IMG/VR virus record: IMGVR_UViG_3300044624_002142
Coordinates: 62,001 to 126,000 of that record
DNA length: 64,000 nucleotides
From: a virus
Reading direction: 5' to 3' (one strand)
The first letter of the stretch is position 1. Every line of letters starts with the position of its first letter. Position numbers and translations under genes: made by a program. Shown piece by piece: positions 353-38,845 of the stretch. The notes under the pieces were generated by a model. That model saw nothing but the letters and a program-made list of their open reading frames with translations. It did no database searches and was not told the DNA's origin.

Positions 353-353
353 T

Positions 354-4181: not shown

Positions 4182-4182
4182 A

Positions 4183-5429: not shown

Positions 5430-5451
5430 AGTTTTACAGGTGTGTGATTAC

Positions 5452-7016: not shown

Positions 7017-7051
7017 ATAACTATTTTTTATTATCTGTTGTAAATTATATT

Positions 7052-9292: not shown

Positions 9293-9331
9293 ATCACGAT
9301 ATTATGAATAACGTTTTTAAATGAAGTAGTT

Positions 9332-9922: not shown

Positions 9923-9925
9923 AAA

Positions 9926-11595: not shown

Positions 11596-11598
11596 AAC

Positions 11599-12429: not shown

Positions 12430-13241
12430 ATTACAATCCAACCGGGAACATATAAATCTTTTGTGTTTAACGGAACATTTGGACCAAACCATCGTGATGG
12501 AGCAATAACTTTTTTATTTGTATTTACATTTAACCACGCACCCCACCAACTAAATGTACTGTTAGCAATAATGTTATGATTACATAGTGTCATAAGACAC
12601 ATATCAACAAACTGATTGTGAGATTCTGATATAAAAAAGTTATCACTTCCTACAAATGTAGACTTTGCCCATTCAATATCATCAGATACAACAATGAAAT
12701 TGTACGACTTATCCGTGAAATGACTTAATGCATTTGTATAATAGTTTAAATCACATGTGCCGTGATGTTTATATTTTAAATAATCACCTCGACGAACATG
12801 GATTGCAACCGTTTCATATTCTTGTTTATCTTTGAGATATGAATTTGCAGTATTAATGATTTCTGGTCTAAACGTGAATTCTGAACGTACCGATGATTCA
12901 ATGTGTTTAAAATACTTTTCCGTTTGAAAGTATCCATTTAAATGTACATTATCTCCCGTGTTAAAAAATTGGGGAATAAAATGATAGTTAGAATATTCTT
13001 CATTGATAATATTGTACTTTTCATCACAATGTAAGGCCGACAATTGAAATGGCTTTGTTAAAACCAATGTATTTTTATTGATTTCTTCGTCGTCTGTAAA
13101 ATCATTCCATGAAATTTTATTACCATTATAGTAATTAATTCCATATAAACAGTTTTGTTTAGTTGCAATACCCATTAATGATGCGTATTGAAACATTTGA
13201 TTACCAAACCGCCCATTCGTTCCAATAGTTATTGTGATCAT
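12426..13241 (-). CDS. GT11 alpha-1,2-fucosyltransferase
   Basis: 271 residues with all GT11 hallmarks. 'GRFGNQMFQYA' is at 10-20, the GDP-fucose-binding 'HVRRGDY' at 148-154 and 'NSTFSWWGAWLN' near 222-233. These enzymes transfer fucose from GDP-fucose onto galactose, making H-antigen-like ends. The window also encodes a GDP-mannose 4,6-dehydratase (55566-56795), the first step to GDP-fucose; a GDP-fucose synthase is not seen here. It overlaps the genes on both sides by ATGA. Confidence 0.9.
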   Translation of the reverse strand: MITITIGTNGRFGNQMFQYASLMGIATKQNCLYGINYYNGNKISWNDFTDDEEINKNTLVLTKPFQLSALHCDEKYNIINEEYSNYHFIPQFFNTGDNVHLNGYFQTEKYFKHIESSVRSEFTFRPEIINTANSYLKDKQEYETVAIHVRRGDYLKYKHHGTCDLNYYTNALSHFTDKSYNFIVVSDDIEWAKSTFVGSDNFFISESHNQFVDMCLMTLCNHNIIANSTFSWWGAWLNVNTNKKVIAPSRWFGPNVPLNTKDLYVPGWIVI

Positions 13242-13891
13242 GTTGCTCTGTAATTGTCTTCTGTTGAGAATTCACTGATATATCGTTTATTATCTTCTCT
13301 CTGTTTTTTAATTGTTTTATTATGAAACAATGACAACTCTTCCATAGCCGGAATACGAGTAAATTCTTTAAATCCTACAATTGTTTCATGTAATTTACGA
13401 TCCCACTTAATATTAGGTAAGTTTTTGTAAATACGTGATTGATAGTCTGGCCAATTAATACGACCTTTGTCATCAACTCGCCATCCGTAATTTCTAACAT
13501 CTTCTTGAGTAACTCCATAAAATGCATTAACTCTAGGAACCCAAAACATTTCACATGATGGATTTGATTTTAATAATGTGTATAAGTTTACCAACAATAT
13601 TTCATTAGGAAGTTCATCTGCATCTATTTGAAATACATATTCACCATCACATTGTCGTGTTCCATAAGTTTTGTGTGCACCATAATCTTTATTGAGATGG
13701 TGTGCAACCAATTTAACACCAACTACTGATTGATATTCATGTAATACTTCTAAAGTAATTGGATCGGTAGAATAATCATCTAATACTACAATTTGATTTC
13801 CGTCTGAGTACTTTAATAATAGAGATAAAAGGGTGCGCAATTGTGCACCCTCATTATGACATGTAACTAAATAAGATATAAATGGTATCAT
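13238..13891 (-). CDS. GT2-family glycosyltransferase
   Basis: 217 residues. 'ISYLVTCHNEGAQLRTLL' is the first nucleotide-binding element of GT2, followed by 'VVLDDYSTDP' and the DxD region 'GEYVFQIDADELP' near 88-100. The C-terminal half contains 'HNKTIKKQREDNKRY', similar to small GT2 proteins of LPS clusters. ATGA overlaps on both sides place it in one coupled unit with the fucosyltransferase and the GT4-like gene. Confidence 0.85.
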   Translation of the reverse strand: MIPFISYLVTCHNEGAQLRTLLSLLLKYSDGNQIVVLDDYSTDPITLEVLHEYQSVVGVKLVAHHLNKDYGAHKTYGTRQCDGEYVFQIDADELPNEILLVNLYTLLKSNPSCEMFWVPRVNAFYGVTQEDVRNYGWRVDDKGRINWPDYQSRIYKNLPNIKWDRKLHETIVGFKEFTRIPAMEELSLFHNKTIKKQREDNKRYISEFSTEDNYRAT

Positions 13892-15207
13892 ACCGATATC
13901 TTAGAAACTGGTGGAAGTGATGGAAGTTTTAATTGTGGAATCACAATTTTTTGTTCAATTGCAAATTGAGGAACGTATTTGTCAAGAATTCCATGTAGTA
14001 CTTTATCCATAGATTGTGTAGAAAAAGATTCAGCATTTCGTTTAGCAAGTTCCAATGCGTTTGTTTTCGTTTTGTGATTCAGACTAAAATAAATCTGTTT
14101 CATACGTTCTTCTGCCAAACTATATGATACTGTAAACCATGCTGATTCTTTGATTAACCATTGATTTACAGATGCCGGATTGATTGTATCAACTTTACCC
14201 GGCAATAAACATTCTTTATTGGAATTCAAGAAATCCAAATGTCCACTCCAATCAGATGCAAGAATTGGTTTACCACTGAGCGAGGCTAACAACAGAGGAT
14301 GCCCAAATCCTTCACCGTGTGTAAAATTTATATGACACTTCACTTTTTCATGATTGAAAAGTGCATTCATTTCAGTGTCAGTAAGTTCTCCATGAATCAA
14401 ATATATGTTAGGCTTATCACCCTTAATTTGTGATTCAATTGATTTGATTTTATTTAATATTTCATCTTTATCTATCTTGGAATAATTAACACCACTTGTT
14501 TTTAAGATCAAACATGGTTTTTGAATACGATCTTTAAATACGTTAATAAAGGTTTTAATCAAGTTGCCAATATCTTTGCGGTCATGATATGGATTCGAAT
14601 GTGTCCATTGACCAACAAACAAAAATGCAAATGACTCTGGAATTGTTGACATAATTTGTTCAACCGATTGAACTTTTTCATTCGTAATTTTATATAGATC
14701 AGTATTGGCTCCCCAGAAACACACTTCCATGGGTTTTATGTTACGTAGTTGTTCTTTACGTCCACTTCCGTCTTTATATTCCTTAGTATAGTCTGCATCA
14801 TCAAATACCTTCTTGGAATGACGAGATGTAACAATGTTCATGTCCATTTTGTTTAGACCTTCAATCCATTCTCCTGCAGCTGCCGTGGTTTCAATTCCAG
14901 CCGTCATTCCAATATTGTACTTGCCAATAGGTTTAAACTCATTTGGAATTGATATTTGAATAAACAGATCTGGTTGACGGTTAATAGGTTCTTTCAACAT
15001 CTTATCAAATAACGCAAGGTTGAGTGGATCGTTATAATCCAAATCATCTTGAAAACGTTTCACGGGATTTGCACCCCACTTGGTGTTTGCAATTCTTAAA
15101 TCGTACTTATCGTAACGTAGAATACTTTTAGCAACATCTTTTGCCCAGTCACCGTAGCCACTTCGACTAAAGACTGGTCCTTGTATAACACATAACGGTT
15201 TACTCAT
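13888..15207 (-). CDS. Glycosyltransferase group 1 (GT4-like)
   Basis: The start is placed at the ATG at 15207 (MSKPLCVIQGP), 1 nt after the dUTPase stop and preceded by GGAA; a TTG four codons upstream lies inside dut. The protein has the GT-B donor domain with 'HINFTHGEGFGHPLLLASLS', an EX7E-like donor site, and 'PILASDWSGHLDFL'. The N-terminal 'GPVFSRSGYGDWAKDVA' is the acceptor-domain loop. About 439 residues, normal for GT4. Confidence 0.82.
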   Translation of the reverse strand: MSKPLCVIQGPVFSRSGYGDWAKDVAKSILRYDKYDLRIANTKWGANPVKRFQDDLDYNDPLNLALFDKMLKEPINRQPDLFIQISIPNEFKPIGKYNIGMTAGIETTAAAGEWIEGLNKMDMNIVTSRHSKKVFDDADYTKEYKDGSGRKEQLRNIKPMEVCFWGANTDLYKITNEKVQSVEQIMSTIPESFAFLFVGQWTHSNPYHDRKDIGNLIKTFINVFKDRIQKPCLILKTSGVNYSKIDKDEILNKIKSIESQIKGDKPNIYLIHGELTDTEMNALFNHEKVKCHINFTHGEGFGHPLLLASLSGKPILASDWSGHLDFLNSNKECLLPGKVDTINPASVNQWLIKESAWFTVSYSLAEERMKQIYFSLNHKTKTNALELAKRNAESFSTQSMDKVLHGILDKYVPQFAIEQKIVIPQLKLPSLPPVSKISV

Positions 15208-15208
15208 A

Positions 15209-15784
15209 TTAATTTCCAAAAAGTTTGTTGTCTCTTTCTTTAATCACTTCACTATATTTTTTAATGTTAGTATCAAAATTTGCTTCTTTTATTTTAAGCA
15301 AATCTTCAATAGTTTTTCCTGATGTAGTTGGTGTTGTAGTTGACTTGTTTATGTCAGTACTTCCAAATCCACCAACACCACGTTGAGTCGAATTCAAATC
15401 ATCAACCTCGATAAAACCTCCTACTGCGGTGCCACATCCTTCTATAATAATTTGAGCAATAGCGGTTTCTTTATCATCCTTAATAATTGGTAATTTAACG
15501 GGTTTATCACCTAGATTGATAAGGGCAACTAGTATTTCTCCACGATAGTCACTATCAATAACTCCTGCGAGAACATCGATACCGTACTTTACAGCAAGTC
15601 CGCTACGAGGTGCAACTCGACCATAAAAACCTTCTGGAATAGCTAATGCAATATCGGTCTTAAAAGCCTTACGTTCACCCGGCTTTAGTTCGTATGATTC
15701 TGTAGTATACAAATCATAACCAGCAGCACCAACGCTTCCTTTGTTAGGAATAACCGCTTTATCAGATAGTTTTTTTATATTCAT
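15209..15784 (-). CDS. dut: dUTPase with C-terminal extension
   Basis: Trimeric-type dUTP pyrophosphatase. Motif I is 'GAAGYDLY' (19-26), motif II 'PRSGLA' (59-64), motif III 'GVIDSDYRGEI' (74-84, catalytic Asp and Tyr) and motif V 'RGVGGFGST' (135-143). It keeps dUTP low and supplies dUMP for the ThyA encoded at 61399-62583. After motif V, where most dUTPases end, there is an extra tail of about 48 residues rich in Thr and Lys, of unknown function. A good Shine-Dalgarno AAGGA precedes the start, which overlaps the upstream GT by ATGA. It is embedded in a GT operon. Confidence 0.95.
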   Translation of the reverse strand: MNIKKLSDKAVIPNKGSVGAAGYDLYTTESYELKPGERKAFKTDIALAIPEGFYGRVAPRSGLAVKYGIDVLAGVIDSDYRGEILVALINLGDKPVKLPIIKDDKETAIAQIIIEGCGTAVGGFIEVDDLNSTQRGVGGFGSTDINKSTTTPTTSGKTIEDLLKIKEANFDTNIKKYSEVIKERDNKLFGN

Positions 15785-16752
15785 TCTATTTCCTTTTTTA
15801 CTTTTTCAATATCTATTTTTCCAAAATTAACTCCCATACAATTATCAGGTTGTGAGTGTCCAACGTGTTCTTTAGTGGTATGAATACTAAATGGATTACA
15901 TGGAATAAAGTTTTGTAATGTATAGTCCATTGCTTTAATCAATTCATTACACATATGTTTTGAATTTAATCCACCTTCGTTCAAAGCCCATTTACGACCT
16001 TCTTCACCACGTCGTATACGTTCTTCATTTGGGATTAGATACCAATACATCATTGCTTCAGCGATATCACGACAATCTACCATGTCGTCAAAAATATATG
16101 GAGTTTGATTACTTCCATGAGTATCCAATACCTTTGGCCAAATTGGCTTTGCCCAAACACCATGCTTCTTATACTTTCCAATGTTATTGGTAGCAAATTC
16201 CTTAGTAAATTCTACTGGGTTTCCATCATCATCCATTTGACCGATTTGATCTTGAAGTCCACCTGTTACATTAACAATTACAGGTGTTCCCGCCATAATT
16301 GATTCTGCAATACTCAGACCAAATCCCTCATTACTTGAAACATTAATTGTAACATCTGCCATATTGTACATTAAGTTCATGTCATTTGAACTAATTTTTT
16401 GGTTTGAAAAATAAACATCATAATCGTAACAAAGTGATTCTTTAACCGCTGGAAGATCTGTACCATGTCCAGCTTGACCAATAACTTCTGTATGAAGAAC
16501 CAAACAAACTTTTTTAGACTCTTCTTTTGGAAGACTATCGCAGAATATACGATATGCCAAAATTACATTTGATACTTGTTTGCGTTTGACATTACGACTA
16601 TTAAAAAATATAATGTAGTTATATTCATTACCCTTAAAGAATTTCTTTACACCTTCTGAAAAGATTTTATCTGTTTTTTCAATGGGTTTGAATACCTGAC
16701 TATTAATTCCATGAGGTACATAATGTAAAAGTGTTTTTCCTTTAACTGACAT
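15781..16752 (-). CDS. Split GT-B glycosyltransferase, donor-binding half
   Basis: 323 residues that correspond mainly to the C-terminal (donor) domain of a GT4-type enzyme. 'IIFFNSRNVKRKQVSNVILA' is the inter-domain strand, and 'SSNEGFGLSIAESIMAGTPV' holds the EX7E donor site. The matching N-terminal domain is the separate upstream gene at 16754-17305. Translation starts at its own ATG one nt after that gene's stop, with a strong AAGGAG about 11 nt upstream. This looks like a real two-chain enzyme, not a recent frameshift. Confidence 0.82.
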   Translation of the reverse strand: MSVKGKTLLHYVPHGINSQVFKPIEKTDKIFSEGVKKFFKGNEYNYIIFFNSRNVKRKQVSNVILAYRIFCDSLPKEESKKVCLVLHTEVIGQAGHGTDLPAVKESLCYDYDVYFSNQKISSNDMNLMYNMADVTINVSSNEGFGLSIAESIMAGTPVIVNVTGGLQDQIGQMDDDGNPVEFTKEFATNNIGKYKKHGVWAKPIWPKVLDTHGSNQTPYIFDDMVDCRDIAEAMMYWYLIPNEERIRRGEEGRKWALNEGGLNSKHMCNELIKAMDYTLQNFIPCNPFSIHTTKEHVGHSQPDNCMGVNFGKIDIEKVKKEIE

Positions 16753-22170: not shown

Positions 22171-23070
22171 ATGAGTGATTTTACGTTTATAATTCAAGGA
22201 CCATACAACACTACACATTTATTGATGTTAGGTAACCTTAAAAAAGAAGGAAAAGTTGTTTTGTCATGTTACATGTCTGATTTAGATAAAATTTCTGACC
22301 CAAGTGTGTATGACATGATAATACTCAATGATATTATCGATACCAATATAGAGAAAATTTACAATTATGATAACGTATATCATCAAGTGAGATCCACGAA
22401 AAGAGCATTGTGTTCTATAAACACTGAATATGCTGTTAAGTTCAGATCTGACTCTTTTTATTCCGGAATACCATATGTAGTAGATTCTATAAGAAAAAAC
22501 TCAGAAAAGTTATCATGTGTGCCCATCAATATTAATCCAGTATGGCCATATCAGTTTTGTGACCATGTAATGGGTGGACGAACTAAAAATTTGAAGGATA
22601 CATTTGAAATAGCAGAGTCTATAATATTAACTCAAGACTTTATTTATGATGAAATTGATACTAGATTATGTCCTGTAGTATTACTTTTTGCATCTTGGCT
22701 TAAAAGTAAGAACATAAAAGGTGATGAACCTATATTTAGTTATTGGATTAAAGATTTTTATGGTACCGATCCTAGAATGGCATGGAGTCCAGACAACAAA
22801 ATAAGTGTTATGGTATATCAGAACTATTTTGATACTGTAGTAAATAACTTAAACATACTAGATATATATAATATGGAACCGTTTTTTGCTAAAAGCAACA
22901 CTGTTAAAAAAACATTCACTAAAGCAATAGATGCGATATCATGGCATGACAGTGTGTGTAAAACCGGACATAAAATGCGTGATATGAATTCATATATAAA
23001 AGCATTTTATGAATGTCATTCTGATAAAACTAAAAACTTTATTAAACCAGTAACACACTATATAAAATAA
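22171..23070 (+). CDS. WavE-like glycosyltransferase
   Basis: 299 residues starting 'MSDFTFIIQGPYNTTHLLML', the opening strand and loop of WavE-type LPS core proteins. 'YAVKFRSDSFYSGIP' near 89-103 has the conserved RxD region. The protein at 28769-29557 is a paralogue with the same layout. It is the first gene after the polymerase and lies 3 nt before the RuBisCO-like gene, so it opens the nucleotide-sugar operon. Confidence 0.72.
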   Translation: MSDFTFIIQGPYNTTHLLMLGNLKKEGKVVLSCYMSDLDKISDPSVYDMIILNDIIDTNIEKIYNYDNVYHQVRSTKRALCSINTEYAVKFRSDSFYSGIPYVVDSIRKNSEKLSCVPININPVWPYQFCDHVMGGRTKNLKDTFEIAESIILTQDFIYDEIDTRLCPVVLLFASWLKSKNIKGDEPIFSYWIKDFYGTDPRMAWSPDNKISVMVYQNYFDTVVNNLNILDIYNMEPFFAKSNTVKKTFTKAIDAISWHDSVCKTGHKMRDMNSYIKAFYECHSDKTKNFIKPVTHYIK

Positions 23071-23073
23071 ACT

Positions 23074-24282
23074 ATGAATAAAAAAGTTATAAACGACATA
23101 GTATTGGTATCAAGTACAAATAATAACAACGGTAACATTGTCACATACGATGTTAAATCAAAAACTAATCTTTGGGATGCTGCATATGCAATTGCAGTTG
23201 GACAGAGTGTTGGTAATCCTGAAAAAAGATCTGAGTTTGAGTCTCGGGAATTGTTTGAAACGTATTGTGCAAAGATAATTGATACCAATAATTTTTCTGA
23301 AAAAGAAGGGTTGATTAATATCTATTATCCTGACAATAATTTCAACTACAAGGAAGATGGAATTACTCATTTCTTGACCACAATTATGGGTGGACAACTT
23401 GATATCGATATTATTCAGAAATGTCGAATTACAAATATTGAATTTTCAAAAGAGTTTGATCAGATATTCAATGGACCAAACTTGGGTCTAAAAGAAATGA
23501 GAAAATACTGTGGTGTAGATGAAAACTATCCTTTATTTGGCGGAATTATAAAGCCAAAAATTGGTTTGAATGTTAAAGATTATGTTGAGGTTGTAAAGAT
23601 TTACGCCGATAACGGATGTAACTTCATAAAAGAAGATGAAATTCTTTCCAATCAGTCATTTTGTTCTATAGAAAAACGACTTGAGAAGATTGGTGATTAT
23701 CTCAGAACTAATAACATCAAAATGGTATATGCACCATCTATAACTTGTGATCATTTATATTTAGAGGATCGTATTCGTAAAGTACATAACTTAGGTATCA
23801 ACGGACTTCATATCAACATTCATAGCGGATATGGTGCGTATAAAATGGTTAAGGATTTAAGATTGAATTTGTATCTTCATTATCAAAAGAGCGGAGATAA
23901 GATGTGGACAAATCCTCAACACAATTATTCTATCGACGAATCTGTTTTGTTTGAGATCGCAAGTCGATGTGGATGTTCTACTCTTCATGTTGGTATGATT
24001 GGTGGATATTTGGATAGTGATGAAGATAGTTTGGTTCGAACAATTAATAAGTTAGTATCATTAAATTCTGTTTCAGCATTGAGTTGTGGAATGCATCCCG
24101 GATTGGTTCAATATATTATTAATAAGTTGGGCCATTGTAATTGGATGGCTAACGTTGGTGGCGCTATATCGTCACATCCGATGGGGAGTGCAGCTGGAGT
24201 TCGTGCAATGAAACAGTCGATTTCTGGAGAACATGGTAAGGAATATCGTAATGCAATTAAAACATGGGGACTTAAATCTTGA
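23074..24282 (+). CDS. RuBisCO-like protein (form IV type), non-carboxylating
   Basis: 402 residues covering both the N-terminal and TIM-barrel domains of the RuBisCO large-subunit family. Spinach-numbered equivalents: K175 is K160 in 'GGIIKPKIGL', and K201/D203/E204 are K186/D188/E189 in 'NFIKEDEI', so the carbamylated-lysine metal site is kept. H294 is H269, H327 is H305 in 'LHVGMIGGYL', and S379 is S337. The phosphate-loop glycines are in 'NVGGAISSHPMG'. R295 is replaced by Tyr and the loop-6 lysine K334 by Y312, so carboxylation is not expected. Family members without carboxylation enolise, isomerise or decarboxylate sugar-derived substrates. The next gene, a sugar nucleotidyltransferase, starts 2 nt after the stop, suggesting a role in making an unusual activated sugar. 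Confidence 0.88.
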   Translation: MNKKVINDIVLVSSTNNNNGNIVTYDVKSKTNLWDAAYAIAVGQSVGNPEKRSEFESRELFETYCAKIIDTNNFSEKEGLINIYYPDNNFNYKEDGITHFLTTIMGGQLDIDIIQKCRITNIEFSKEFDQIFNGPNLGLKEMRKYCGVDENYPLFGGIIKPKIGLNVKDYVEVVKIYADNGCNFIKEDEILSNQSFCSIEKRLEKIGDYLRTNNIKMVYAPSITCDHLYLEDRIRKVHNLGINGLHINIHSGYGAYKMVKDLRLNLYLHYQKSGDKMWTNPQHNYSIDESVLFEIASRCGCSTLHVGMIGGYLDSDEDSLVRTINKLVSLNSVSALSCGMHPGLVQYIINKLGHCNWMANVGGAISSHPMGSAAGVRAMKQSISGEHGKEYRNAIKTWGLKS

Positions 24283-24284
24283 GT

Positions 24285-25001
24285 ATGAATGTTGTTATAC
24301 CAGCTGCTGGATTGGGTACTAGGTTTAATACCACAATTCCAAAACCATTGTTGGATGTTAATGGATTGCCGATGTTAGCTAGAGTTATAAATAACTTTTA
24401 TAATAGTGATGTAAAGTTTTTTGTATGTATTCTTAAAGAACATCAACAGAAATTTAATATTATAGATAATGTAAAAGACTACTGTGATACATCGATGGTT
24501 AAATATTTTATTATTGATGAACTGACAGATGGGCCGGCAAGAACATCATATTTTTCAAAACCACATATTAATATTAATGAACCGTTGATTATAACAAACT
24601 GTGATCAGGTTATTTTTGACTTAGACTTAAATCGATTGATGTCTTTTGCCGAAAAGAATTCGGCAGATGGTGTACTTGGTACGTTTTATTCAAATAGTCC
24701 TAAAAACAGTTACGTTAGACTAAATGATGACGGATTAATTACACAAGTTAAAGAAAAAGAAGTAATAAGTAATTATGCTACCAATGGTCTTCATTTTTGG
24801 ACAAAAGGATCTTCTTTCTTTGATTCGTGTGATGAAATGTTTTCACGAAACGACAGATCAAACAATGAGTTTTATGTTGCACCAAGTTATAACTATATGA
24901 TAAAAAAAGGAATGAAAGTAGTTCAGTATTTTTTCAATGAACACTTTCCTATTGGAATACCACAAGATTTAGATAAATTTAGAAAGTTAAATTATATATG
25001 A
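24285..25001 (+). CDS. Sugar-phosphate nucleotidyltransferase
   Basis: The start is at the ATG at 24285; a TTG two codons upstream overlaps the RuBisCO-like gene's stop and is less likely. 'VVIPAAGLGTRF' (3-14) is the nucleotide-binding signature and 'IPKPLLDVNG' carries the conserved lysine. 'ITNCDQVIF' is the metal-binding Asp region. These enzymes couple NTP and a sugar-1-phosphate to an NDP-sugar. It resembles the C-terminal half of the fusion at 27399-28766, so the operon carries two related activities. Its substrate may be the product of the RuBisCO-like enzyme. Confidence 0.85.
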   Translation: MNVVIPAAGLGTRFNTTIPKPLLDVNGLPMLARVINNFYNSDVKFFVCILKEHQQKFNIIDNVKDYCDTSMVKYFIIDELTDGPARTSYFSKPHININEPLIITNCDQVIFDLDLNRLMSFAEKNSADGVLGTFYSNSPKNSYVRLNDDGLITQVKEKEVISNYATNGLHFWTKGSSFFDSCDEMFSRNDRSNNEFYVAPSYNYMIKKGMKVVQYFFNEHFPIGIPQDLDKFRKLNYI

Positions 25002-25633
25002 ACAAACAATTACAAAATGATTTTGTACGATACACTTCCAATGGACAATTGATTCTATCCGAATACCACTGCGGTCCCGGATCTACGTTATGGTATACAC
25101 GTCCTATTAGAAGTGTATTTGTAGAGTTTTTAAAAAAACACAATATTAACAGTATGTTAGATGCTCCATGTGGAGATCATCAATGGATGAGTTTAATAAA
25201 GTTCCCAAATGAATTTGATTATATTGGAGGAGATCTTCATGAAGATATGATTTCTAGAAATAACAATATATATGGAAACAAATTTATTCAACTTGATATT
25301 ACCGAAGATCAATTACCTTCAAAAGATTTGATTTTTGTGAGAGATTGTTTGTTTCATCTTACCGATGATATGAAAAGAAAGTTTTTTAGTAATTTATTGA
25401 AAACAGACTTTAAGTTTTTACTTACATCAAATCATCCAAGATGTAATATTAATGTTCCTAATATTATAAACGGTGAAACGTTTCAAGAAATTAATTGGAA
25501 TATTTCCCCTTGGAATTTCCCAACTCCAATTGATACTATCGTGGATTATAATGAATCTGATGATAGATTTAATCCATATCCATATCGAACAATGGAACTT
25601 TGGTCTAAAGAACAACTCGAAACAATTTTATAA
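24998..25633 (+). CDS. SAM-dependent methyltransferase (class I)
   Basis: 211 residues. After an N-terminal 'YHCGPGSTLWYTRPIR' comes the SAM motif 'SMLDAPCGDHQWM' (about 51-63), 'YIGGDLHEDMI' and 'LIFVRDCLFHL' (motif IV region). A similar N-terminal 'SGPGS' plus SAM motif is found in the protein at 41663-42253, so the two are probably paralogues. It overlaps the nucleotidyltransferase by ATGA. It is likely to methylate the sugar or glycan made by the operon. Confidence 0.78.
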   Translation: MNKQLQNDFVRYTSNGQLILSEYHCGPGSTLWYTRPIRSVFVEFLKKHNINSMLDAPCGDHQWMSLIKFPNEFDYIGGDLHEDMISRNNNIYGNKFIQLDITEDQLPSKDLIFVRDCLFHLTDDMKRKFFSNLLKTDFKFLLTSNHPRCNINVPNIINGETFQEINWNISPWNFPTPIDTIVDYNESDDRFNPYPYRTMELWSKEQLETIL

Positions 25634-25638: not shown

Positions 25639-25965
25639 ATGCGAGTATTTGATTCTAAACCATTTATGGATAAAGGTGGTTGGTTTATTGGAGATTTTGA
25701 ACCAACAGTGTTTAAAACCACATCATTTGAGGTATCATATAAACTTCATCATAAAGGAGAAGATTGGCCAAAACACTATCATAAGATAAGTGAAGAAATA
25801 AACTTTCTAATTCGTGGAAAAATGACTATTAATAATACAGTTATTGATGCAGGAACCATATTTATCATTGACAGATATGAATCTGTAAAACCTATATTCT
25901 TAGAAGATTGTGAACTAATTGTTGTAAAGGTTCCATCTTCAAAGAATGACAAATACGAAAATTAA
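25639..25965 (+). CDS. Cupin-domain protein
   Basis: 108 residues with a single beta-barrel pattern: 'WPKHYHKISEEINFLIRGKM' holds the metal ligands His-His-Glu of cupin motif 1, and 'AGTIFIIDRYES' is near motif 2. Small cupins in sugar operons are often isomerases, epimerases or metal-dependent lyases acting on phosphorylated or NDP-linked sugars, but the sequence alone does not say which. It lies between two methyltransferases in the RuBisCO-like operon. Confidence 0.75.
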   Translation: MRVFDSKPFMDKGGWFIGDFEPTVFKTTSFEVSYKLHHKGEDWPKHYHKISEEINFLIRGKMTINNTVIDAGTIFIIDRYESVKPIFLEDCELIVVKVPSSKNDKYEN

Positions 25966-25967: not shown

Positions 25968-26600
25968 ATGTTTACGATAGATCAAAATTTATATACTCAG
26001 ACCCCATCCAATATCAATGGACTTTCTTATCTTCCATCTTTCAAAAATGAAGCTGATAACGATGTTGATTGGCCAGGACATATTGCACCATTTAATGAAA
26101 TTATAGAGGAAATCACTGATGCTAATAAAGAAGCATTGGATGATATATTGAGTAAGGTTAATGTAAAAAATGTTATTGAAATTGGTATTGCTCGTAATAA
26201 TAAAAGATCGTTTACTACACAATTACTTTACGCCAAAAAAGGTATTTATTGTGGTATTGATCTTGATGACAAGACTTTTTTGAATGATGATTTGAATCGT
26301 GTATACACAATCAAAGCTAATTCACATGATCAGGTAAATATACGTTCTTATTTAAATACCATCGGACTTCATAAGTGTTCAGTGTTGTTTATCGATGGAT
26401 GGCATTCAGTGAATACTGTTATTAATGACTGGACATATACTGACTTACTTGATGATAAAGGTGTAGTTATTTTTCATGATACTAACTATCATCCGGGACC
26501 AAATCTTGTTGTACCAGCAGTTGATCGATCTATGTATAGAGTTGTAAAGTATTGTGATGGAGGATCTGATTGGGGTATTGCTGCCGCATACAAACTGTGA
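25968..26600 (+). CDS. Class I SAM methyltransferase (Methyltransf_24-like)
   Basis: 210 residues. The SAM-binding strand is in 'NVIEIGIARNNKRSFTTQLL', the ribose acid in 'YCGIDLDD', and 'SVLFIDGWHSVNTVINDW' carries the DGxH motif of the Methyltransf_24 group, with 'GVVIFHDTNYHPGP' after it. Proteins of this group sit in polysaccharide and cephalosporin-hydroxylase-like clusters and methylate sugars. It begins 2 nt after the cupin gene, so it is part of the same operon. Confidence 0.8.
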   Translation: MFTIDQNLYTQTPSNINGLSYLPSFKNEADNDVDWPGHIAPFNEIIEEITDANKEALDDILSKVNVKNVIEIGIARNNKRSFTTQLLYAKKGIYCGIDLDDKTFLNDDLNRVYTIKANSHDQVNIRSYLNTIGLHKCSVLFIDGWHSVNTVINDWTYTDLLDDKGVVIFHDTNYHPGPNLVVPAVDRSMYRVVKYCDGGSDWGIAAAYKL

Positions 26601-26626: not shown

Positions 26627-27388
26627 ATGAATATAGCAATTATCATTTCTGGAAGAATAGATTTGTTTGAACAATCAGTTTTTGAAAATTATAATAATAT
26701 AATTAATCCATTAATTAACAATGGACACACAGTAAATATTTTCATGTCTATATGGAATCATCATGATCAAGATATGTTGTTAAGAGCATATCAACCATAT
26801 GTAAAAGTTTTTGATACTGAAACTTTTACTGATTATACAGCTGGATTGATAAAGGATATGGTTCCGTATGAAATTCTTGTAAAGTTATTTGGTCATTCTG
26901 AAGAAAATAAAGTTTCTAATACACTATACTGGATGTATAAATTAAAGCGTGCATATAAATTTGTAAAGGAATATGAACGTGTTAATAATATTGAACATGA
27001 TTTGTACATTCGATTAAGACCCGATGTAACATGTTGTGATCCTATTGATATACATCAACTTACTACGTTGAATGATTCATCAATTATAGTTCATGTAGAT
27101 CACATTTTGGTAAAAGATGATAAATTTTATGGATGTGGAGAAGGTTGGATCGATGATAATTTATGTATTGCAAAACAACGACCATTTGAAACATTTTGTA
27201 ATACATATGACGATATAATAAATTTATGTTTAATGACCGGATCTTGTATATCACATATATTGTTACAAAAACAATTTGAATTAAATAATATAAAAACAAT
27301 AAGACCTAATTCTCCATTAATTATTTATCGAAAAGGTGATATTAATAATCCTGTTTTAAAATTTTATCATTTTGAACATTGTTATTAA
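26627..27388 (+). CDS. Putative glycosyltransferase (uncharacterised)
   Basis: 253 residues. 'MNIAIIISGRIDLFEQS' opens like several capsule-locus GT-A proteins, and 'HDLYIRLRPDVTCCDPIDI' near 126-144 resembles the RxD region of WavE-like enzymes. 'GCGEGWIDDNLCIA' may be the acceptor-side motif. It is related in style, not clearly in sequence, to the WavE-like genes on either side. The operon continues into the HAD-nucleotidyltransferase gene. Confidence 0.6.
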   Translation: MNIAIIISGRIDLFEQSVFENYNNIINPLINNGHTVNIFMSIWNHHDQDMLLRAYQPYVKVFDTETFTDYTAGLIKDMVPYEILVKLFGHSEENKVSNTLYWMYKLKRAYKFVKEYERVNNIEHDLYIRLRPDVTCCDPIDIHQLTTLNDSSIIVHVDHILVKDDKFYGCGEGWIDDNLCIAKQRPFETFCNTYDDIINLCLMTGSCISHILLQKQFELNNIKTIRPNSPLIIYRKGDINNPVLKFYHFEHCY

Positions 27389-27398
27389 ATGTACTTTT

Positions 27399-28766
27399 AT
27401 GATAAAATTAATTGTTTTTGATTTAGACGGTGTTTTGGTTGAAACTAAAAAACTTCACTATGATGCTTTAAATAAAGCGTTACGTGATGTCGATCCAAAG
27501 TATGAGATTTCATACGATGAACATCTTGCTAAGTATGATGGACTTAGTACTCATAAAAAATTAGATTTACTTGGTCGTGAAAAAGGATTATCTGGAATGG
27601 AGTTTGAAAGTGTATGGTTTCGTAAACAAGTATACACCTCACAAATGTTACGTGAATTGACTCCGGATACAAGACTTATAGAAGTTCTCCGAAAGTTAAA
27701 ACAAAAATATACTATTGCTGTTGCTAGCAATAGTATTCGTGATAGTGTTAAAATAACTCTACTAAAGTTGGGGTTATTGGAATACGTTGATTTTTATTTG
27801 TCTAATGAAGATGTAAAACATCCAAAACCACATCCTGAGATCTATTTGAGATCAATGATTCAATCAGGTGCAACACCAAAAGAAACCATTATAATTGAAG
27901 ATAGTGTTATTGGACGTAATGCTGCAAACAATAGTGGTGCTTATTTACTGGGAGTAAATAATCCAACAGATGTAACGTATGAAAATATTACGGAACATAT
28001 AGATTGTATCAATAAAAATACTAAAAGACCAAAATGGCAAGGAGGAAAAATGAATGTTTTAATACCAATGGCAGGCGCAGGTAGTCGATTTGAAAAGGCT
28101 GGATATACATTTCCTAAACCTTTGATTGATGTACGTGGAAAGCCCATGATTCAATGGGTAGTTGACAATTTGAACGTAGACGCCAAGTATATTTTTATTG
28201 TTCAGAAAAGTCATTTTGAAAAGTACAACCTTAAAGATACACTTGATAATTTCTGTCCAAATAATAAAATTGTTCAGATTGAAGGAATTACCGAAGGTGC
28301 TGCTTGTACGACACTATTAGCAAAACAATATATTAATAAGGATGAACCTTTGATTATTGCCAACAGTGATCAATTTGTTGAGTGGAATAACGAAGAGTTT
28401 ATTTATACATCTACCACTGGAGATTTAGATGGTAATATTCTTACGTTTAAATCTACACACCCCAAGTGGAGTTATGCAAAAATCAATGAATTAGGATATG
28501 TGACTGAAGTTGCTGAAAAACGTCCTATAAGTGATATTGCGACTGTAGGCATATACTATTGGAGAAAGGGCAGTGACTATGTTAAGTATGCTGAACAAAT
28601 GATTCAAAAGAACATTCGTGTCAACAATGAATTTTATGTGTGTCCGGTCTTCAATGAAGCCATTTCTGACGGTAAAAAGGTTCGTACATTTAATATTGAA
28701 AAGATGTGGGGTCTTGGAACCCCTGAAGATTTAGAAAATTTTTTAAAAAATTACGAAAAACATTAA
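27399..28766 (+). CDS. HAD phosphatase fused to sugar nucleotidyltransferase
   Basis: 455 residues from the ATG at 27399. The first 200 or so residues are a HAD hydrolase of the phosphoglucomutase-like subfamily ('VFDLDGVLVET' with D8/D10, 'VASNS', 'KPHPEIYL', 'IEDSVIG'). From residue 218 follows a nucleotidyltransferase ('MAGAGSRF', 'FPKPLIDVRG', 'IANSDQFV'). The fusion suggests removal or transfer of a phosphate followed by NTP activation, as in the heptose pathway, where the two steps are separate proteins. A near-perfect Shine-Dalgarno, AAGGAGG, precedes an in-frame ATG at 28050, so the second domain may also be made alone. Confidence 0.88.
   Translation: MIKLIVFDLDGVLVETKKLHYDALNKALRDVDPKYEISYDEHLAKYDGLSTHKKLDLLGREKGLSGMEFESVWFRKQVYTSQMLRELTPDTRLIEVLRKLKQKYTIAVASNSIRDSVKITLLKLGLLEYVDFYLSNEDVKHPKPHPEIYLRSMIQSGATPKETIIIEDSVIGRNAANNSGAYLLGVNNPTDVTYENITEHIDCINKNTKRPKWQGGKMNVLIPMAGAGSRFEKAGYTFPKPLIDVRGKPMIQWVVDNLNVDAKYIFIVQKSHFEKYNLKDTLDNFCPNNKIVQIEGITEGAACTTLLAKQYINKDEPLIIANSDQFVEWNNEEFIYTSTTGDLDGNILTFKSTHPKWSYAKINELGYVTEVAEKRPISDIATVGIYYWRKGSDYVKYAEQMIQKNIRVNNEFYVCPVFNEAISDGKKVRTFNIEKMWGLGTPEDLENFLKNYEKH
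28039..28052 (+). promoter_or_regulatory. Internal Shine-Dalgarno and start codon inside the HAD-nucleotidyltransferase gene
   Basis: AAGGAGG at 28039-28045 is followed by AAAAA and the in-frame ATG at 28050-28052, exactly at the start of the nucleotidyltransferase domain (residue 218). Most genes around here have weak or no Shine-Dalgarno sites, which makes this site stand out. It could give a stand-alone enzyme of about 238 residues, or be a leftover from fusion of two genes. Confidence 0.6.
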
Positions 28767-28768: not shown

Positions 28769-29557
28769 ATGCTCGGTGATTTTACATTTATAATTCATGG
28801 AAATTATGATGAAACGCACATTCCTATGTGTGCCGAATTAAAACGATTTGGTAAAGTCATATTATCGACCAATAAAAAATATATGGACCATGTTTCACAA
28901 CATGCAAATCATTATGATAAAATAATATGTGAATCGGATATAGATGTTACCAATATATACAATCATCAGAATATCTATCTTCATATCAACTCAGTATTAA
29001 ATGGATTGCGTCAGTGTGATACTCAATATGTTGTAAAAGTTAGAACAAATCATTGTTATTCAAATATTCAATATCTTGTAAATAAAGTAAGATCAAATAT
29101 AAATGATAAATATTTGTGTAGTAATATTGCTGTAAATCCAGAATTTCCATATCATCCATGTGATAATATTATTGCTGGAACTAAAGAATTGGTTTTTTCT
29201 ATATACAAAACAGCTTATAGTAGTATATTAGCTGAAGATTTTATATATCAAGACAATGATATACGAATGTGTGCTGAAGTTTTATTGTTCATTTCATATC
29301 TTAAATATAAAAACATTAAAATAAATAAAATCAATGGAAACTCATATTTTTATGTTGATGGTATAAGAAATGGTATGGTAATTCATGGTTACATTAGTGA
29401 TCAATACAGATCTATAATGAAAGAAAATTTAGAATTAATTGACGTTGAGAATTTAGCACCATATGTTATAAATTTTAATAGTCATACATTTGATGTTATT
29501 TTTAGAAATATTAAAAATGTGGATGAACTATTAAGTAAAACAAATTTGAACTTTTAA
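28769..29557 (+). CDS. WavE-like glycosyltransferase, paralogue
   Basis: 262 residues with the same architecture as the protein at 22171-23070: 'GDFTFIIHGNYDETHIPM' at the start, 'YVVKVRTNHCYSNI' (RxD region changed to RTN), 'FPYHPCDNIIAG' and 'AEDFIYQDNDIRMCAEVLLF'. The two copies flank the nucleotide-sugar genes. The altered Asp may reduce or change activity. It follows the fusion gene by 2 nt. Confidence 0.7.
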   Translation: MLGDFTFIIHGNYDETHIPMCAELKRFGKVILSTNKKYMDHVSQHANHYDKIICESDIDVTNIYNHQNIYLHINSVLNGLRQCDTQYVVKVRTNHCYSNIQYLVNKVRSNINDKYLCSNIAVNPEFPYHPCDNIIAGTKELVFSIYKTAYSSILAEDFIYQDNDIRMCAEVLLFISYLKYKNIKINKINGNSYFYVDGIRNGMVIHGYISDQYRSIMKENLELIDVENLAPYVINFNSHTFDVIFRNIKNVDELLSKTNLNF

Positions 29558-29573
29558 GTAAAACGAATTGTGT

Positions 29574-30035
29574 ATGAAATACATCTCTCATAGAGGCAAT
29601 CTAAGTGGTCCAAATTCAGACAAAGAAAATCATCCCGATTATATTAAAAAAGCATTAAAATTGGATTATGATGTTGAAATTGACGTGTGGTATACTGATG
29701 AAAAGTGGTATTTGGGACACGATAGTCCAACGTATCAAGTAAAATATGATTTTCTAACAGATCGAAGATTTTGGTTACATGCCAAAAATGGTGATGCATT
29801 TAATTTGTTGGTACAAGACTATACAGTAAATGTATTTTGGCATACCACTGAAGATTGGGTTTTAACCAGCAAGAGATTTATATGGACGTATCCTGGCAAG
29901 CAATTATATCCTGAAAGTGTGTGTGTTTTGCCAGAACACTCATGGGTGGGAGATCTTACAAAATGCCACGCAGTATGTACTGACTTTGTAAAAGAATTTC
30001 CAGAACAGTTTGAGGAAGAATACTGGATAAATTAA
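29574..30035 (+). CDS. Glycerophosphodiester phosphodiesterase-like protein, short
   Basis: 153 residues from the ATG at 29574. 'YISHRGN' with the first catalytic His, 'YDVEIDVWYTD' with the acidic metal ligands and 'WYLGHDSPTY' with the second His are the N-terminal active-site blocks of GDPD/PI-PLC-like phosphodiesterases. The protein is much shorter than a full TIM barrel (about 250 residues), so it is either a minimal version or has another role such as cleaving a phospholinked sugar. It ends the operon that precedes the clamp gene. Confidence 0.7.
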   Translation: MKYISHRGNLSGPNSDKENHPDYIKKALKLDYDVEIDVWYTDEKWYLGHDSPTYQVKYDFLTDRRFWLHAKNGDAFNLLVQDYTVNVFWHTTEDWVLTSKRFIWTYPGKQLYPESVCVLPEHSWVGDLTKCHAVCTDFVKEFPEQFEEEYWIN

Positions 30036-32831: not shown

Positions 32832-33416
32832 ATGGGAATGTATGATGACATAGTATGTAAATACCCTCTTCCTTTACCAGAAGATACTAAAGGATTTCAC
32901 CCATGTGGATTTCAAACCAAAGATTTAGATAATGCTTTAGATTGTTATGAAATCCGTGAAGATGGCACACTATGGTTGCGTGAATGTGAACGTGAATATA
33001 CTGAAGGCAATCCGGATGGTAAAACATGGTCAGAAAAGTTTGGTATTGTAAAAGAAATCAAAGTTTGGTGGACTCATGTAAAAACAACCAGAACCATACG
33101 TATCTATGATTATAACAATTATAATGATGGACCATATGACTATTGGGTTGAATTTGAAATTGAATTTGTTGACGGCGTTATTAACAAGATTAACCTTGTA
33201 AAGTTTGAAGCCACTGATAACGCTAAAAGAAAAGAAAATGATAGACGATTCATTGAAGAACTTAAAAAGAACAAAGAGTTTGAATCTACTAATTTTTATA
33301 AATTACTAATCAAACCATATAACAAAGTAGTTAGATTTTGGACAAGACAAGTGAGTAAATTTGCCACTCTTTTGTTAAGTGTTTGTTATAAGATTGAAAG
33401 AAAACTGGTTATATGA
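32832..33416 (+). CDS. Conserved phage-type hypothetical protein (194 aa)
   Basis: It begins 'MGMYDDIVCKYPLPLPEDT', then 'FQTKDLDNALDCYEIREDGT', a pattern I recognise from small uncharacterised phage proteins ('MGMFDDI...YPLP...FQTKDL'). The rest is beta-rich and acidic, ending in a basic helical tail ('FYKLLIKPYNKVVRFWTRQV'). Function unknown. It overlaps the downstream GT gene by ATGA. Confidence 0.65.
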   Translation: MGMYDDIVCKYPLPLPEDTKGFHPCGFQTKDLDNALDCYEIREDGTLWLRECEREYTEGNPDGKTWSEKFGIVKEIKVWWTHVKTTRTIRIYDYNNYNDGPYDYWVEFEIEFVDGVINKINLVKFEATDNAKRKENDRRFIEELKKNKEFESTNFYKLLIKPYNKVVRFWTRQVSKFATLLLSVCYKIERKLVI

Positions 33417-35881
33417 ATTTGAAAATGTTTGATATTTTGCCGGAATATATTCAGTGTATGAACCAGACCGATGGTGTTTGTTATATATACCAGTCGGGTG
33501 TTAGTGGCTATGCTAATGCAGCTAAAGGTTATATCTATGATTTATTAAAAAAAGTAAACGTAGTTACTAAACCGTGCGAATTTGATCAAACTCATGTAAT
33601 TGAGTCTGGAGAGTTTGAACAAACAATTAAAACACTTACAAATAACAATGTTGTATATAAAAATATAATTGTTCATTCTACACCGGACATGTGGGATTAT
33701 TTGATTGATAAGACCGAAGTTAAAATTCATAATCGAAATATCATTGGTAGAACTGTTTGGGAGTTTGATCCTCTTATTCCAAATTGGGTAAATGCAATAA
33801 ACAAAAGCATTGTAAAAATTGTTAGTGTTCCTACAGAATGGAACAAACAGGTTTTTGAACGTAGCGGAGTTACAAAACCTATTATTGTTGAACCACATAT
33901 AAATGTTACGTTTCCATATACTAAGGTTGATTTAAAGAAACTAATTGAAGATAAAGGAGAAGTCCTTTACAATGGAGATTTTTCTCAATTTGATTTACAA
34001 TCATCATATAAGTTTTATACCATCGGTCAATATATTACACGTAAAGGAATATCAGAAACAATAAAAGCGTATTGTGAATCGTTCAATCAGACTGATACCG
34101 TAATACTGTTTGTTAAAACGTTTGGGTTTGATTATTCAGAGTTACAGAAAGAGGACTGTAGACGGAAAATTAAAAATATAATTGGAGAATCGAATGTTCC
34201 TCCGATTGTTTTTTTGAAAGAAATGTTCACTTATGATGAAATACAATCTCTTCATGAACAATGTGATTGTTATGTGCAGTTAACACGATCTGAAGGTGTA
34301 GGTTTAGGAATTTTTGAAGCGTACAATAGAGGAAAAAAAGTTATTGTTACAAACCATGGTGGTCATGTTGAGTTTCTTCCGAATAATTATGAAGGGTTGG
34401 TTGATTGTGAATTGGTACCCGTAAAAGATAGTATATTTTACAATCTCGATCTCGACAAAACATATCTTTGGGCAAAACCTTCGATTAAACATGCTGTAGA
34501 AAAGATTAAAATTATGGCTGACATTAGTAGTACAGTTAGTCATATGACCAATAATACACCATTTCCACTAATTTTAAATAGTGGATGGTATGATTTAGAA
34601 TTATATCAAAATGTCCACTTCAGATGGATGCATCTGAAATCATCTATTGACGTTATTGATAATAATGATTATGATTCGGTAACACTAGTTTTTGGTAACC
34701 ATGTAAATCGAAAAACAATAAAATCATATGTAGTATCATCTCATGACGAATCAAAAACTCTTGTATCAGAAAAAGTATGTGAAATTGGAGAACAATGTTA
34801 TATACGTATACCGTTGGTCAATACAAAACAAATATTGATTGAGAGTGATTCTTATTACTGTCCGTATGAAAGTGGAAACAGTGAAGATCGTCGAAAATTA
34901 TCAATCATGATGTTTAAATTTGAATTTGAAAAAAATAATAATCATTTTATACAATCTATAGAGAGTGTTACTCATATAAAAGACAATTCACATTTTCAAA
35001 TTACATTTGATAGTCATGTAACAACAAATACTAACGCACATTTTGAATATGACAGTGTTATACTACCAAATGTTAGTAGTAGAGTAACAAATGGAATTTT
35101 GTTGTATTTACCAAATCTTATTGGAAAACACGCCAAAACTTTAGATAATCTAAGTCAATATAAACACTCTATTAACGATTCAAAAATCGTGGTGTATACA
35201 GATGGCAGTATAGATGGATTCGATAAATATCCTTTTGAATTTATACAGATTGATCCTTTACCAATAATGTATGACGGGATGATGCCTGTACATTACAAGT
35301 ATGCTACATGGGCATTTTTTGAAGGAATAAAGATCGCTAAGAGCAAAATGTGGGATTATTTTTTTTGTTACGAATGGGATTGTATGATAGGGAAAGACTA
35401 TTGGTATGACACCTTGTGGCAAGAACATTTGAGTTGGCCATATGAACCTATCATGACTGGTACACCTGTATTCAAATGTCCATTAAAAGGTGTTGGTAAT
35501 TTGTTACAGGGATCAATGGATTATAGATACAAGTATTCCAAAGATTGTGGATTATACATGAATATAGAACATGTAAATCCTACTGCATTATATACAAATG
35601 GTGCATTAACTTTTTACAATACAAATAATACCGCAAAATATTTTCAACCAGAACTTGAATTTTATGGAGATGTATCATCATATATGAATACAATAACCAG
35701 TTGGGACTTGGAAATTGGAATACGATTATTCAAAGAATACGGAGAAAAATCGTTTGAAAAGGTTGGTTGGTTGCCATCGTCATACTCTGGATGTGGTGAT
35801 TATTATTACAACCAAACACAAAGAGAATTAATGATCGATACTGGACAAAAAGTAGTAATACACCAATATAAATATTTATGA
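33413..35881 (+). CDS. Large modular glycosyltransferase (GT4-like plus accessory and GT-A-like domains)
   Basis: 822 residues. Residues 1 to about 380 are a GT4-type GT-B module: 'GVSGYANAAKGYIYDLL' at the N-terminus and 'RSEGVGLGIFEAYNRGKKVI' in the donor site with EX7E. Residues about 390-510 form a beta-rich domain ('SGWYDLELYQNVHFRW' to 'SEDRRKLSIMMFKFEF') that recurs at the start of the protein at 38846-40192. The last 250 residues contain 'DYFFCYEWDCMIGKDYWY' and 'TSWDLEIGIRLFKEYG', a possible second GT. It opens the second GT block and overlaps genes on both sides by ATGA. Confidence 0.82.
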   Translation: MNLKMFDILPEYIQCMNQTDGVCYIYQSGVSGYANAAKGYIYDLLKKVNVVTKPCEFDQTHVIESGEFEQTIKTLTNNNVVYKNIIVHSTPDMWDYLIDKTEVKIHNRNIIGRTVWEFDPLIPNWVNAINKSIVKIVSVPTEWNKQVFERSGVTKPIIVEPHINVTFPYTKVDLKKLIEDKGEVLYNGDFSQFDLQSSYKFYTIGQYITRKGISETIKAYCESFNQTDTVILFVKTFGFDYSELQKEDCRRKIKNIIGESNVPPIVFLKEMFTYDEIQSLHEQCDCYVQLTRSEGVGLGIFEAYNRGKKVIVTNHGGHVEFLPNNYEGLVDCELVPVKDSIFYNLDLDKTYLWAKPSIKHAVEKIKIMADISSTVSHMTNNTPFPLILNSGWYDLELYQNVHFRWMHLKSSIDVIDNNDYDSVTLVFGNHVNRKTIKSYVVSSHDESKTLVSEKVCEIGEQCYIRIPLVNTKQILIESDSYYCPYESGNSEDRRKLSIMMFKFEFEKNNNHFIQSIESVTHIKDNSHFQITFDSHVTTNTNAHFEYDSVILPNVSSRVTNGILLYLPNLIGKHAKTLDNLSQYKHSINDSKIVVYTDGSIDGFDKYPFEFIQIDPLPIMYDGMMPVHYKYATWAFFEGIKIAKSKMWDYFFCYEWDCMIGKDYWYDTLWQEHLSWPYEPIMTGTPVFKCPLKGVGNLLQGSMDYRYKYSKDCGLYMNIEHVNPTALYTNGALTFYNTNNTAKYFQPELEFYGDVSSYMNTITSWDLEIGIRLFKEYGEKSFEKVGWLPSSYSGCGDYYYNQTQRELMIDTGQKVVIHQYKYL

Positions 35882-38844: not shown

Positions 38845-38845
38845 T

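Follow-up and report, generated by a model that had tools for sequence, protein, structure and literature searches.

RuBisCO-like proteins (RLPs) serve as a test bed for the origin of RuBisCO, and to our knowledge the few characterised RLP groups act in salvage or catabolism. In RuBisCO itself, the carbamylated K201 together with D203/E204 and K175 serves enolisation and proton return, while E60, N123 and K334 serve the addition of CO2. Further RLP groups from metagenomes are named IV-GOS, IV-AMC and IV-EnvOnly. Sugar activation of the GDP-D,D-heptose type proceeds through an isomerase, a PfkB kinase, a HAD phosphatase and the nucleotidyltransferase HddC. In the MTA-isoprenoid shunt of R. rubrum, the isomerisation of a ketose 1-phosphate by an RLP is followed by a cupin step (PMC6302742). 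The Global Ocean Sampling (GOS) survey reported 65 RuBisCO homologues that fall into new groups; six sites are poorly conserved, N123, H327 and G404 being three of them (PMC1821046). For landfill viruses, rbcL genes are described to cluster with RbcL-like proteins and are listed under CO2 fixation, rbcL also being present in an IMG/VR sample (PMC12607003), and a viral rbcL is reported as active together with rbcS (PMC12615777). A link between an RLP and nucleotide-sugar synthesis was not found in the open-licence literature searched, PMC12168267 being of no relevance to it.

The window analysed here is a stretch of 64,000 nucleotides, positions 62,001 to 126,000 of the IMG/VR virus record IMGVR_UViG_3300044624_002142 (G000; 134,428 bases). 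On its plus strand, positions 23074-24282 encode an RLP of 402 amino acids, an ATG-initiated open reading frame (ORF) with verified coordinates and frame and the core of a gene cassette that is flanked by genes for a DNA polymerase, a sliding clamp and a clamp loader (read by eye). The protein matches the Pfam family RuBisCO_large (PF00016) with 98.3 bits and an E-value of 6.5e-28 (cut-off 30.1) and the RuBisCO N domain with 25.8 bits (cut-off 20.7), its best solved relatives by sequence being form III RuBisCOs (phmmer E 5e-31). An AlphaFold2 model, built from an alignment of 57 sequences including the window protein, reached a pLDDT of 94.3 and a pTM of 0.92, and its top Foldseek matches are type III RuBisCOs with a query TM of 0.87. 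Judged on this model, the P. horikoshii RuBisCO (VIA-align Z 43.2, 383 residues, 2.3 A) and the B. subtilis MtnW (Z 42.4, 367 residues, 2.5 A) tie as structural neighbours, with Z-scores of 38-43 to RuBisCOs and RLPs among the 50 matches listed. By its PF00016 match above cut-off and its fold, the RLP is a full-length member of the RuBisCO superfamily. In comparison with two relatives that are 79% identical in protein sequence, dN/dS amounts to approximately 0.08 at saturated dS, which shows purifying selection on an intact gene.

In a careful maximum-likelihood tree of 64 rows, 28 rows from phages, SAR11 and Azospirillum stand together on one side of a branch that has a long stem and a support of 100/100; a warning of the program concerned long YkrW branches. 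Elsewhere in this tree, one group each is made up by forms I, II, Photo, NonPhoto/OiaX and YkrW, and also by form III, there with weak support (86/51). Compared with forms I, II, III, Photo, NonPhoto/OiaX and YkrW/DeepYkr, the RLP stands in a clade of its own. The new clade that the original prediction had proposed to look for is recovered as separate among these groups, and it may be identical with IV-GOS. Nesting within a methionine-salvage or isoapionate RLP clade, named in the same prediction as the outcome that would speak against it, is not seen, the RLP lying outside MtnW/YkrW, DeepYkr and NonPhoto/OiaX at 100/100.

The references behind these groups were typed by scoring 19 reference proteins with NCBIfam, whereby two form I rows, two form II rows and one MtnW row pass a cut-off. 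OiaX is the best NCBIfam model of ten reference rows, all of them under the OiaX cut-off; L201 is annotated as OiaX, L202 as form I, three form III rows are PDB sequences, and the remaining rows were grouped by likeness, with consistent placement in the tree. YkrW is represented by five rows, four of them scored, with only L209 passing an MtnW cut-off, and within Photo the row L189 matches the Chlorobium tepidum RLP (E 2.7e-292), the other three being grouped by the tree. Several class assignments of the window RLP were examined and rejected. Its best NCBIfam model is rubisco_III, with 150 bits against a cut-off of 497 for a carboxylating form III RuBisCO. The scores for an MtnW/YkrW enolase are 124.6 and 98.1 bits against cut-offs of 409 and 513.6, with placement on a separate branch, and the score for OiaX/IV-NonPhoto is 98.2 bits against 700, the 16 reference rows standing on another branch (100/99). 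Form IV-Photo is likewise confined to another branch with its four rows (100/100). The R. rubrum-type MTRu-1P isomerase (DeepYkr) was rejected with L208 and L210/L211 outside the phage clade and with unlike cupins. L208 adjoins a cupin-like gene lying directly 3' of this bacterial RLP in L228 (positions 2616-4267; phylum of the Azospirillum genome G001), and its nearest PDB entry is 3qfw, which is of the DeepYkr type; the pair is perhaps that of the MTA-isoprenoid shunt.

Active-site residues were compared in an alignment of 92 clade members, the window and Azospirillum proteins included, with references of forms I, II, III, Photo, NonPhoto and YkrW. Seven RuBisCO positions are kept in 92/92 members, namely K175 (K160 in the window protein), K177 (K162), K201 (K186), D203 (D188), E204 (E189), S379 (S337) and G381 (G339), and H327 (H305) is His in 83/92 and Gln in nine. 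The metal ligands K201/D203/E204 are present as K186/D188/E189 throughout, and carbamylation of K186 is predicted from the sequence. A second set of positions has changed, identically in 92/92 members: E60 to G43, T65 to N48, W66 to P49, N123 to G107, H294 to Q271, R295 to K272, H298 to D275, K334 to Y312 and G380 to C338. Carboxylating RuBisCOs of forms I-III are recognised by E60/N123/H294/R295/K334, where the clade reads G/G/Q/K/Y without exception, although a Gly at N123 is found as well in L201 (the annotated OiaX), L212 and the four Photo rows and is not a mark unique to the phage clade. Since K175/K201/D203/E204 are kept and E60/N123/K334 replaced, the parts for proton abstraction are retained and those for carboxylation gone. 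The like replacement of all five of these positions in 92/92 members therefore makes carboxylation, and with it CO2 fixation by the phage-clade RLP, very unlikely, and Q271/K272 in place of H294/R295 could also suit another chemistry. Much of this had been anticipated by the original prediction, which had recognised the metal site, K160, the retained H305 and the Tyr at loop-6 K334; its Tyr in place of R295 proved to be Lys272 in 92/92 members, and the conserved His that it had seen in H269 lies two residues before the H294 column, where Gln271 stands. Its general reading of a form IV-like protein that does not carboxylate and lies among nucleotide-sugar genes is supported.

Three further core genes lie downstream of the RLP on the plus strand. 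A sugar nucleotidyltransferase (NTP_transferase; 24279-25001) with weak AglF, GlmU and HddC matches overlaps the RLP stop by 4 bases. It is followed by a small single-domain cupin (25639-25965) of PHROG 24762, which names no function, with a weak PDB match (E 0.011) and an HxHx4E metal motif that is invariant in 8/8 sequences, and by a short GDPD-like phosphodiesterase of 155 amino acids (29568-30035) without a Pfam match. The model of the latter (pLDDT 95.0) aligns with the P. furiosus GDPD over 146 residues (Z 10.7), and among the top rows its structural matches are mostly of the GDPD family, with two glucanases at ranks 4-5. H8, R9, N21, E37, D39 and H51 are invariant in 53 rows and E20 and D52 nearly so. 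By modelled fold and by its HR...EN...ExD...HD motif the protein is assigned to the GDPD family, with a predicted activity. It is short compared with the 217 residues or more of the solved GDPDs it aligns with, and relatives are found in 16 phage records, all of them Synechococcus phages.

Accessory genes on the same strand comprise a methyltransferase (24998-25633; PHROG 3382), a putative glycosyltransferase (26627-27388; PHROG 13607, which names no function) and a HAD phosphatase-nucleotidyltransferase fusion (27372-28766; Pfam above cut-off). The BLAST cluster of the putative glycosyltransferase has members matching DUF7796 below cut-off and occurs in 48/93 of the RLP loci defined below, and a relative of the HAD part of the fusion in 12/93, window included. 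A possible methyltransferase (25968-26600; Methyltransf_24 below cut-off) belongs to a cluster found within 6 genes of the RLP in 23/93 loci. A WavE-like protein (28769-29557) stays below the Pfam cut-off. The unassigned protein upstream (22171-23070, plus strand), perhaps the WavE-like glycosyltransferase of the original prediction, is without a Pfam match, weakly matches PHROG 12279 and shows no conservation with the RLP across the loci. Within the neighbour list of that prediction, the two nucleotidyltransferases (one HAD-fused, both above the Pfam cut-off) and one methyltransferase stood, the second methyltransferase and the WavE match fell below their Pfam cut-offs, and the cupin was recognised by its weak PDB match and its metal motif. 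As constant partners of the RLP, the operon it had drawn gives way to the set of nucleotidyltransferase, cupin and GDPD-like gene, the last of which it had not named. Elsewhere in the window, positions 1-16752 and 33413-44329 hold many putative glycosyltransferase and methyltransferase genes in a T4-like phage (by eye). Sugar-nucleotide genes accompany them: 1610-2572 is related through BLAST clusters to NAD-dependent epimerases, and 36546-37646 in the same way to DegT aminotransferases. By eye, 55566-56795 has the look of a GDP-mannose dehydratase, and the ORF at 57860-58528 resembles a ClpP-type protease.

The conservation of the cassette was evaluated over 93 RLP loci consisting of the window, 83 viral and nine genome contigs, near copies and contig ends included. 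Left out were L001, L016, 11 duplicate loci and L026, which BLAST did not join to the RLP cluster and whose four-gene order was read from ORFs by eye. Thinning resulted in 58 representatives under 85% identity and 27 at 68%. Within 7 genes of the RLP, 90 of the 93 loci have the nucleotidyltransferase, 79 have the GDPD-like gene, 68 have the cupin and 57 have all three. The corresponding numbers are 56, 49, 45 and 38 for the 58 thinned loci and 27, 22, 22 and 19 for the 27 representatives. The conservation of the RLP-nucleotidyltransferase pair in other genomes, on which the original prediction had made itself depend, is found in 90/93 loci and 56/58 thinned ones. Proximity is part of the pattern: in the 58 thinned loci the nucleotidyltransferase lies at most 3 genes from the RLP in 53, the GDPD gene in 45 and the cupin in 43 cases, compared with 3, 4 and 0 at a distance of 6-9 genes, and where a cassette gene directly adjoins the RLP, the two overlap or are separated by no more than 20 bases at 110 of 121 junctions. 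In Azospirillum the order, read by eye, is GDPD, RLP, cupin, nucleotidyltransferase. The cupin is not always needed, because it was not found near the RLP in 13/58 thinned loci, SAR11 among them. Curation of the cupin counts was necessary, the HMM having drifted into three long methyltransferase-like proteins (L040, L092, L093), which were excluded from the thinned counts; these loci also hold a true cupin. Two fusions were observed, both with Pfam matches below cut-off, one joining the cupin to a C-methyltransferase-like protein (L037) and one joining the GDPD-like protein to a DUF7796-like member of the 26627-27388 cluster (L048). Further neighbour clusters represent surface-glycan genes, i.e., NAD-dependent epimerases, FkbM and TylF methyltransferases, a UDP-GlcNAc 2-epimerase and a DegT aminotransferase.

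Relatives of the RLP are encoded by 237 viral contigs (tblastn), the best 80 of which were examined, and one viral record is 100% identical over the RLP. Ten genome contigs carry relatives, seven of them titled Pelagibacter, Pelagibacteraceae or Pelagibacterales and one each assigned to a Crocinitomicaceae MAG, an uncultured alphaproteobacterium and Azospirillum oleiclasticum. In L022 the RLP stands among housekeeping genes (PPDK, a Mrp-type ATPase, an IPP transferase and a TPP enzyme), and in L019 PNT and EF-P are nearby, which makes both RLPs chromosomal. The SAR11 stretch L022:7851-12760 has the appearance of an inserted island; bordered by housekeeping genes, it contains Thy1, GDPD, nucleotidyltransferase, RLP, another nucleotidyltransferase and a gene for a putative glycosyltransferase. 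A tblastn search of the RLP against 50,697 phage records returned no match, and in BFVD no query TM exceeded 0.38 among the 50 matches listed. Matches were obtained for 349 plasmid records, and 40 rows sampled across the ranking showed 22-28% identity, representing other RLPs or form I where annotated. The order of Azospirillum (G001) contains a close member in 1/82 genomes, with some match in 55/82 (next best E 1.5e-33), and PF00016 occurs in 104/349 genomes of its phylum, all clades pooled. In the family of the SAR11 genome G002, 3/397 genomes hold close members (PF00016 search; two were scored and the third is the genome of L019), and in the phylum of G004 1/296, where 96 genomes have some match (next best E 7.6e-33). 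The RLP clade is rare in bacteria.

Sister cassettes devoid of an RLP provide a point of comparison. In the Synechococcus phages Bellamy and SynMITS9220M01, the same cupin family stands directly 3' of a nucleotidyltransferase-RpiB fusion, and the nucleotidyltransferase part of the Bellamy fusion is homologous to that of the window (29%, E 7e-30). A viral scan anchored on the cupin covered the best 80 of 167 loci with relatives plus L115, in total 81 loci, each with stretches of up to 4.5 kb on either side (some ending at contig ends, L115 being longer). Within these stretches, 41 loci have an RLP, 24 an RpiB, 16 neither and none both; of the 16, eight have a PfkB kinase and a phosphatase and eight none of these. 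In 23/24 loci, RpiB and a same-family nucleotidyltransferase are encoded by a single ORF. The RpiB domains of L234 and L261 pass the RpiB/LacA/LacB cut-off, and for L250 the phosphatase shows a likeness to KdsC that stays below cut-off. A BLASTP search of the 93 RLP loci, with a single query per protein, recovered no relatives of that RpiB, of the PfkB kinase or of the KdsC-like phosphatase. On these sequence comparisons, the RLP would stand in the place of a sugar-phosphate isomerase, whether or not the steps of the kinase and the phosphatase are included. A repeated exchange of RLP and RpiB was rejected, as a quick tree of 57 nucleotidyltransferase rows shows essentially one split, with those of RLP and RpiB cassettes on two sides of one branch. 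This nearly single historical split weakens the replacement argument: with their nucleotidyltransferases divided, RLP and RpiB cassettes may make different products, and the exchange lends little weight to a shared function. Among cyanophage-kind contigs, L233-L261 (e.g., L234:3347-4501, L250:2486-5258) show a second conserved viral cassette, HAD(KdsC-like)-PfkB-nucleotidyltransferase(-RpiB)-cupin-GDPD, which looks like a compact heptose-style activation route. A third form (L276, L278-L283) combines a HAD-nucleotidyltransferase, a cupin, a nucleotidyltransferase with a C-terminal HAD-like domain and a GDPD (domains read from L278), with no RLP and no RpiB within the stretch covered.

Because the same sugar-activating genes adjoin it in many viruses and a few bacteria, the RLP probably helps to make an unusual surface sugar. 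Our proposal, to which we assign an even chance, is that the RLP clade serves, in phages and a few bacteria, a dedicated nucleotide-sugar pathway with the RLP as an enolising isomerase or epimerase of a phosphorylated keto-sugar. It takes as given the fold, the clade, the metal-site residues, the loss of the carboxylation residues and the conserved four-gene cassette; the reaction, substrate, nucleotide, product and glycan target are what we infer. The RLP, with Mg2+ and a carbamylated Lys186, would take a proton from the carbon beside the ketone of a phosphorylated keto-sugar, and its return elsewhere on the sugar phosphate would result in isomerisation or epimerisation. The overlapping nucleotidyltransferase would then activate the product as an NDP-sugar, and the cupin, as a putative metal-dependent isomerase or epimerase, may change the sugar phosphate or NDP-sugar further. 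The short GDPD-like enzyme may cut a phosphodiester in the same pathway or polymer, and the neighbouring glycosyltransferases and methyltransferases would attach the sugar to a glycan of a surface or of the virion. Support comes from the enolisation residues being kept in 92/92 members, the separate clade, the positional conservation, the fusions and, by analogy, the RLP/RpiB replacement and the R. rubrum precedent. Counting against it, an RLP that is only an isomerase leaves the sister cassette's kinase and phosphatase without a counterpart in RLP cassettes. A more far-reaching version, which we consider rather unlikely, holds that the new RLP form marks a nucleotide-sugar pathway not described before, common among phages and also found on SAR11 chromosomes, in which the RLP acts on a host ketose 1-phosphate or bisphosphate and replaces isomerase, kinase and phosphatase, leading in one step to the nucleotidyltransferase substrate. 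We know of no earlier RLP in anabolic sugar activation; if true, this would be the first.

Among the other explanations, the RLP could be an OiaX-like decarboxylase or transcarboxylase/hydrolase of a (branched) sugar-acid phosphate that provides the carbon backbone of the activated sugar. In its favour, carbohydrate metabolism is also the field of OiaX and its RLP relatives, the window protein has a weak match to the OiaX model (98 bits), the annotated OiaX shares the Gly at N123 and the cupin/C-methyltransferase-like fusion of L037 hints at branched sugars. Considering that those 98 bits face a cut-off of 700, that the RLP lies outside the NonPhoto/OiaX clade and that the 16 NonPhoto/OiaX reference rows keep K334, R295 and H294 and have 14 Glu and 2 Asp at E60, positions that read Tyr, Lys, Gln and Gly in the phage clade, this appears improbable. 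We regard as quite improbable that RLP and cupin form a salvage pair as in R. rubrum, in which the RLP isomerises 5-methylthioribulose 1-phosphate or 5-deoxyribulose 1-phosphate, the cupin acts next and the nucleotidyltransferase uses the salvaged carbon. The MTA-isoprenoid shunt does have an RLP and then a cupin (PMC6302742), and the gene pair recurs in the reference locus L228. Yet the window cupin has no significant BLASTP match to the R. rubrum-type cupin (E 0.17), the RLPs fall into different clades, and the nucleotidyltransferase and phosphodiesterase have no known place in the shunt. A non-catalytic scaffold or regulatory protein, i.e., a structural partner of the nucleotidyltransferase, would agree with several RuBisCO catalytic residues being replaced but is highly improbable, because 92/92 members keep the Lys-Asp-Glu metal site, K175 and K177, and the replacements, too, are the same throughout, the pattern of an active site under selection. 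A virus-encoded true RuBisCO fixing CO2, as an automatic 'rbcL' annotation would say, draws on the RuBisCO_large match well above cut-off, on rubisco_III as best NCBIfam model (150 bits) and on reports of viral rbcL, one with activity (PMC12615777), and is already nearly refuted by the rubisco_III cut-off of 497 bits, the replacement of E60, N123, H294, R295 and K334 in 92/92 members and the sugar-activation genes next to it.

Should the RLP clade, which has an invariant active site of its own, prove to be tied to sugar activation, the family would gain a role in biology that is new to it. Phage-clade genes could be mislisted as viral 'rbcL' carbon-fixation genes, their RuBisCO Pfam match being well above cut-off. 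The question is made testable by four small proteins that are also present in a named strain, Azospirillum oleiclasticum RWY-5-1-1.

Comparison with the known systems places the phage clade at some distance from each of them. The GOS homologues, compared here by description rather than by sequence, are in keeping with it in their poorly conserved sites N123, H327 and G404, but K177 also counts as poorly conserved among them, unlike in the phage clade, where it is kept. MtnW/YkrW (2,3-diketo-5-methylthiopentyl-1-P enolase) and the R. rubrum-type isomerase (DeepYkr) resemble it in the enolisation of a ketose 1-phosphate, the likely common theme, whereas the phage RLP forms a separate clade and the window cupin differs from the R. 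rubrum-type by BLAST. OiaX/IV-NonPhoto, of apiose and sugar-acid catabolism, are likewise RLPs of carbohydrate metabolism, yet in five plasmid loci they are set apart by a four-carbon acid sugar kinase adjoining the RLP. Form III RuBisCOs (Thermococcus kodakarensis, Pyrococcus horikoshii) share the fold, the best sequence match and the Lys/Asp/Glu metal site, in contrast to the replaced E60, N123, K334, H294 and R295 and the sugar-activation gene setting of the phage clade. The GDP-D,D-heptose-type route, finally, is paralleled by the RpiB, PfkB, KdsC-like HAD and RmlA/GlmU-like nucleotidyltransferase of the sister viral cassette, which also holds the window's cupin and GDPD families, whereas the RLP loci are devoid of relatives of the sister isomerase, kinase and phosphatase and carry the RLP instead.
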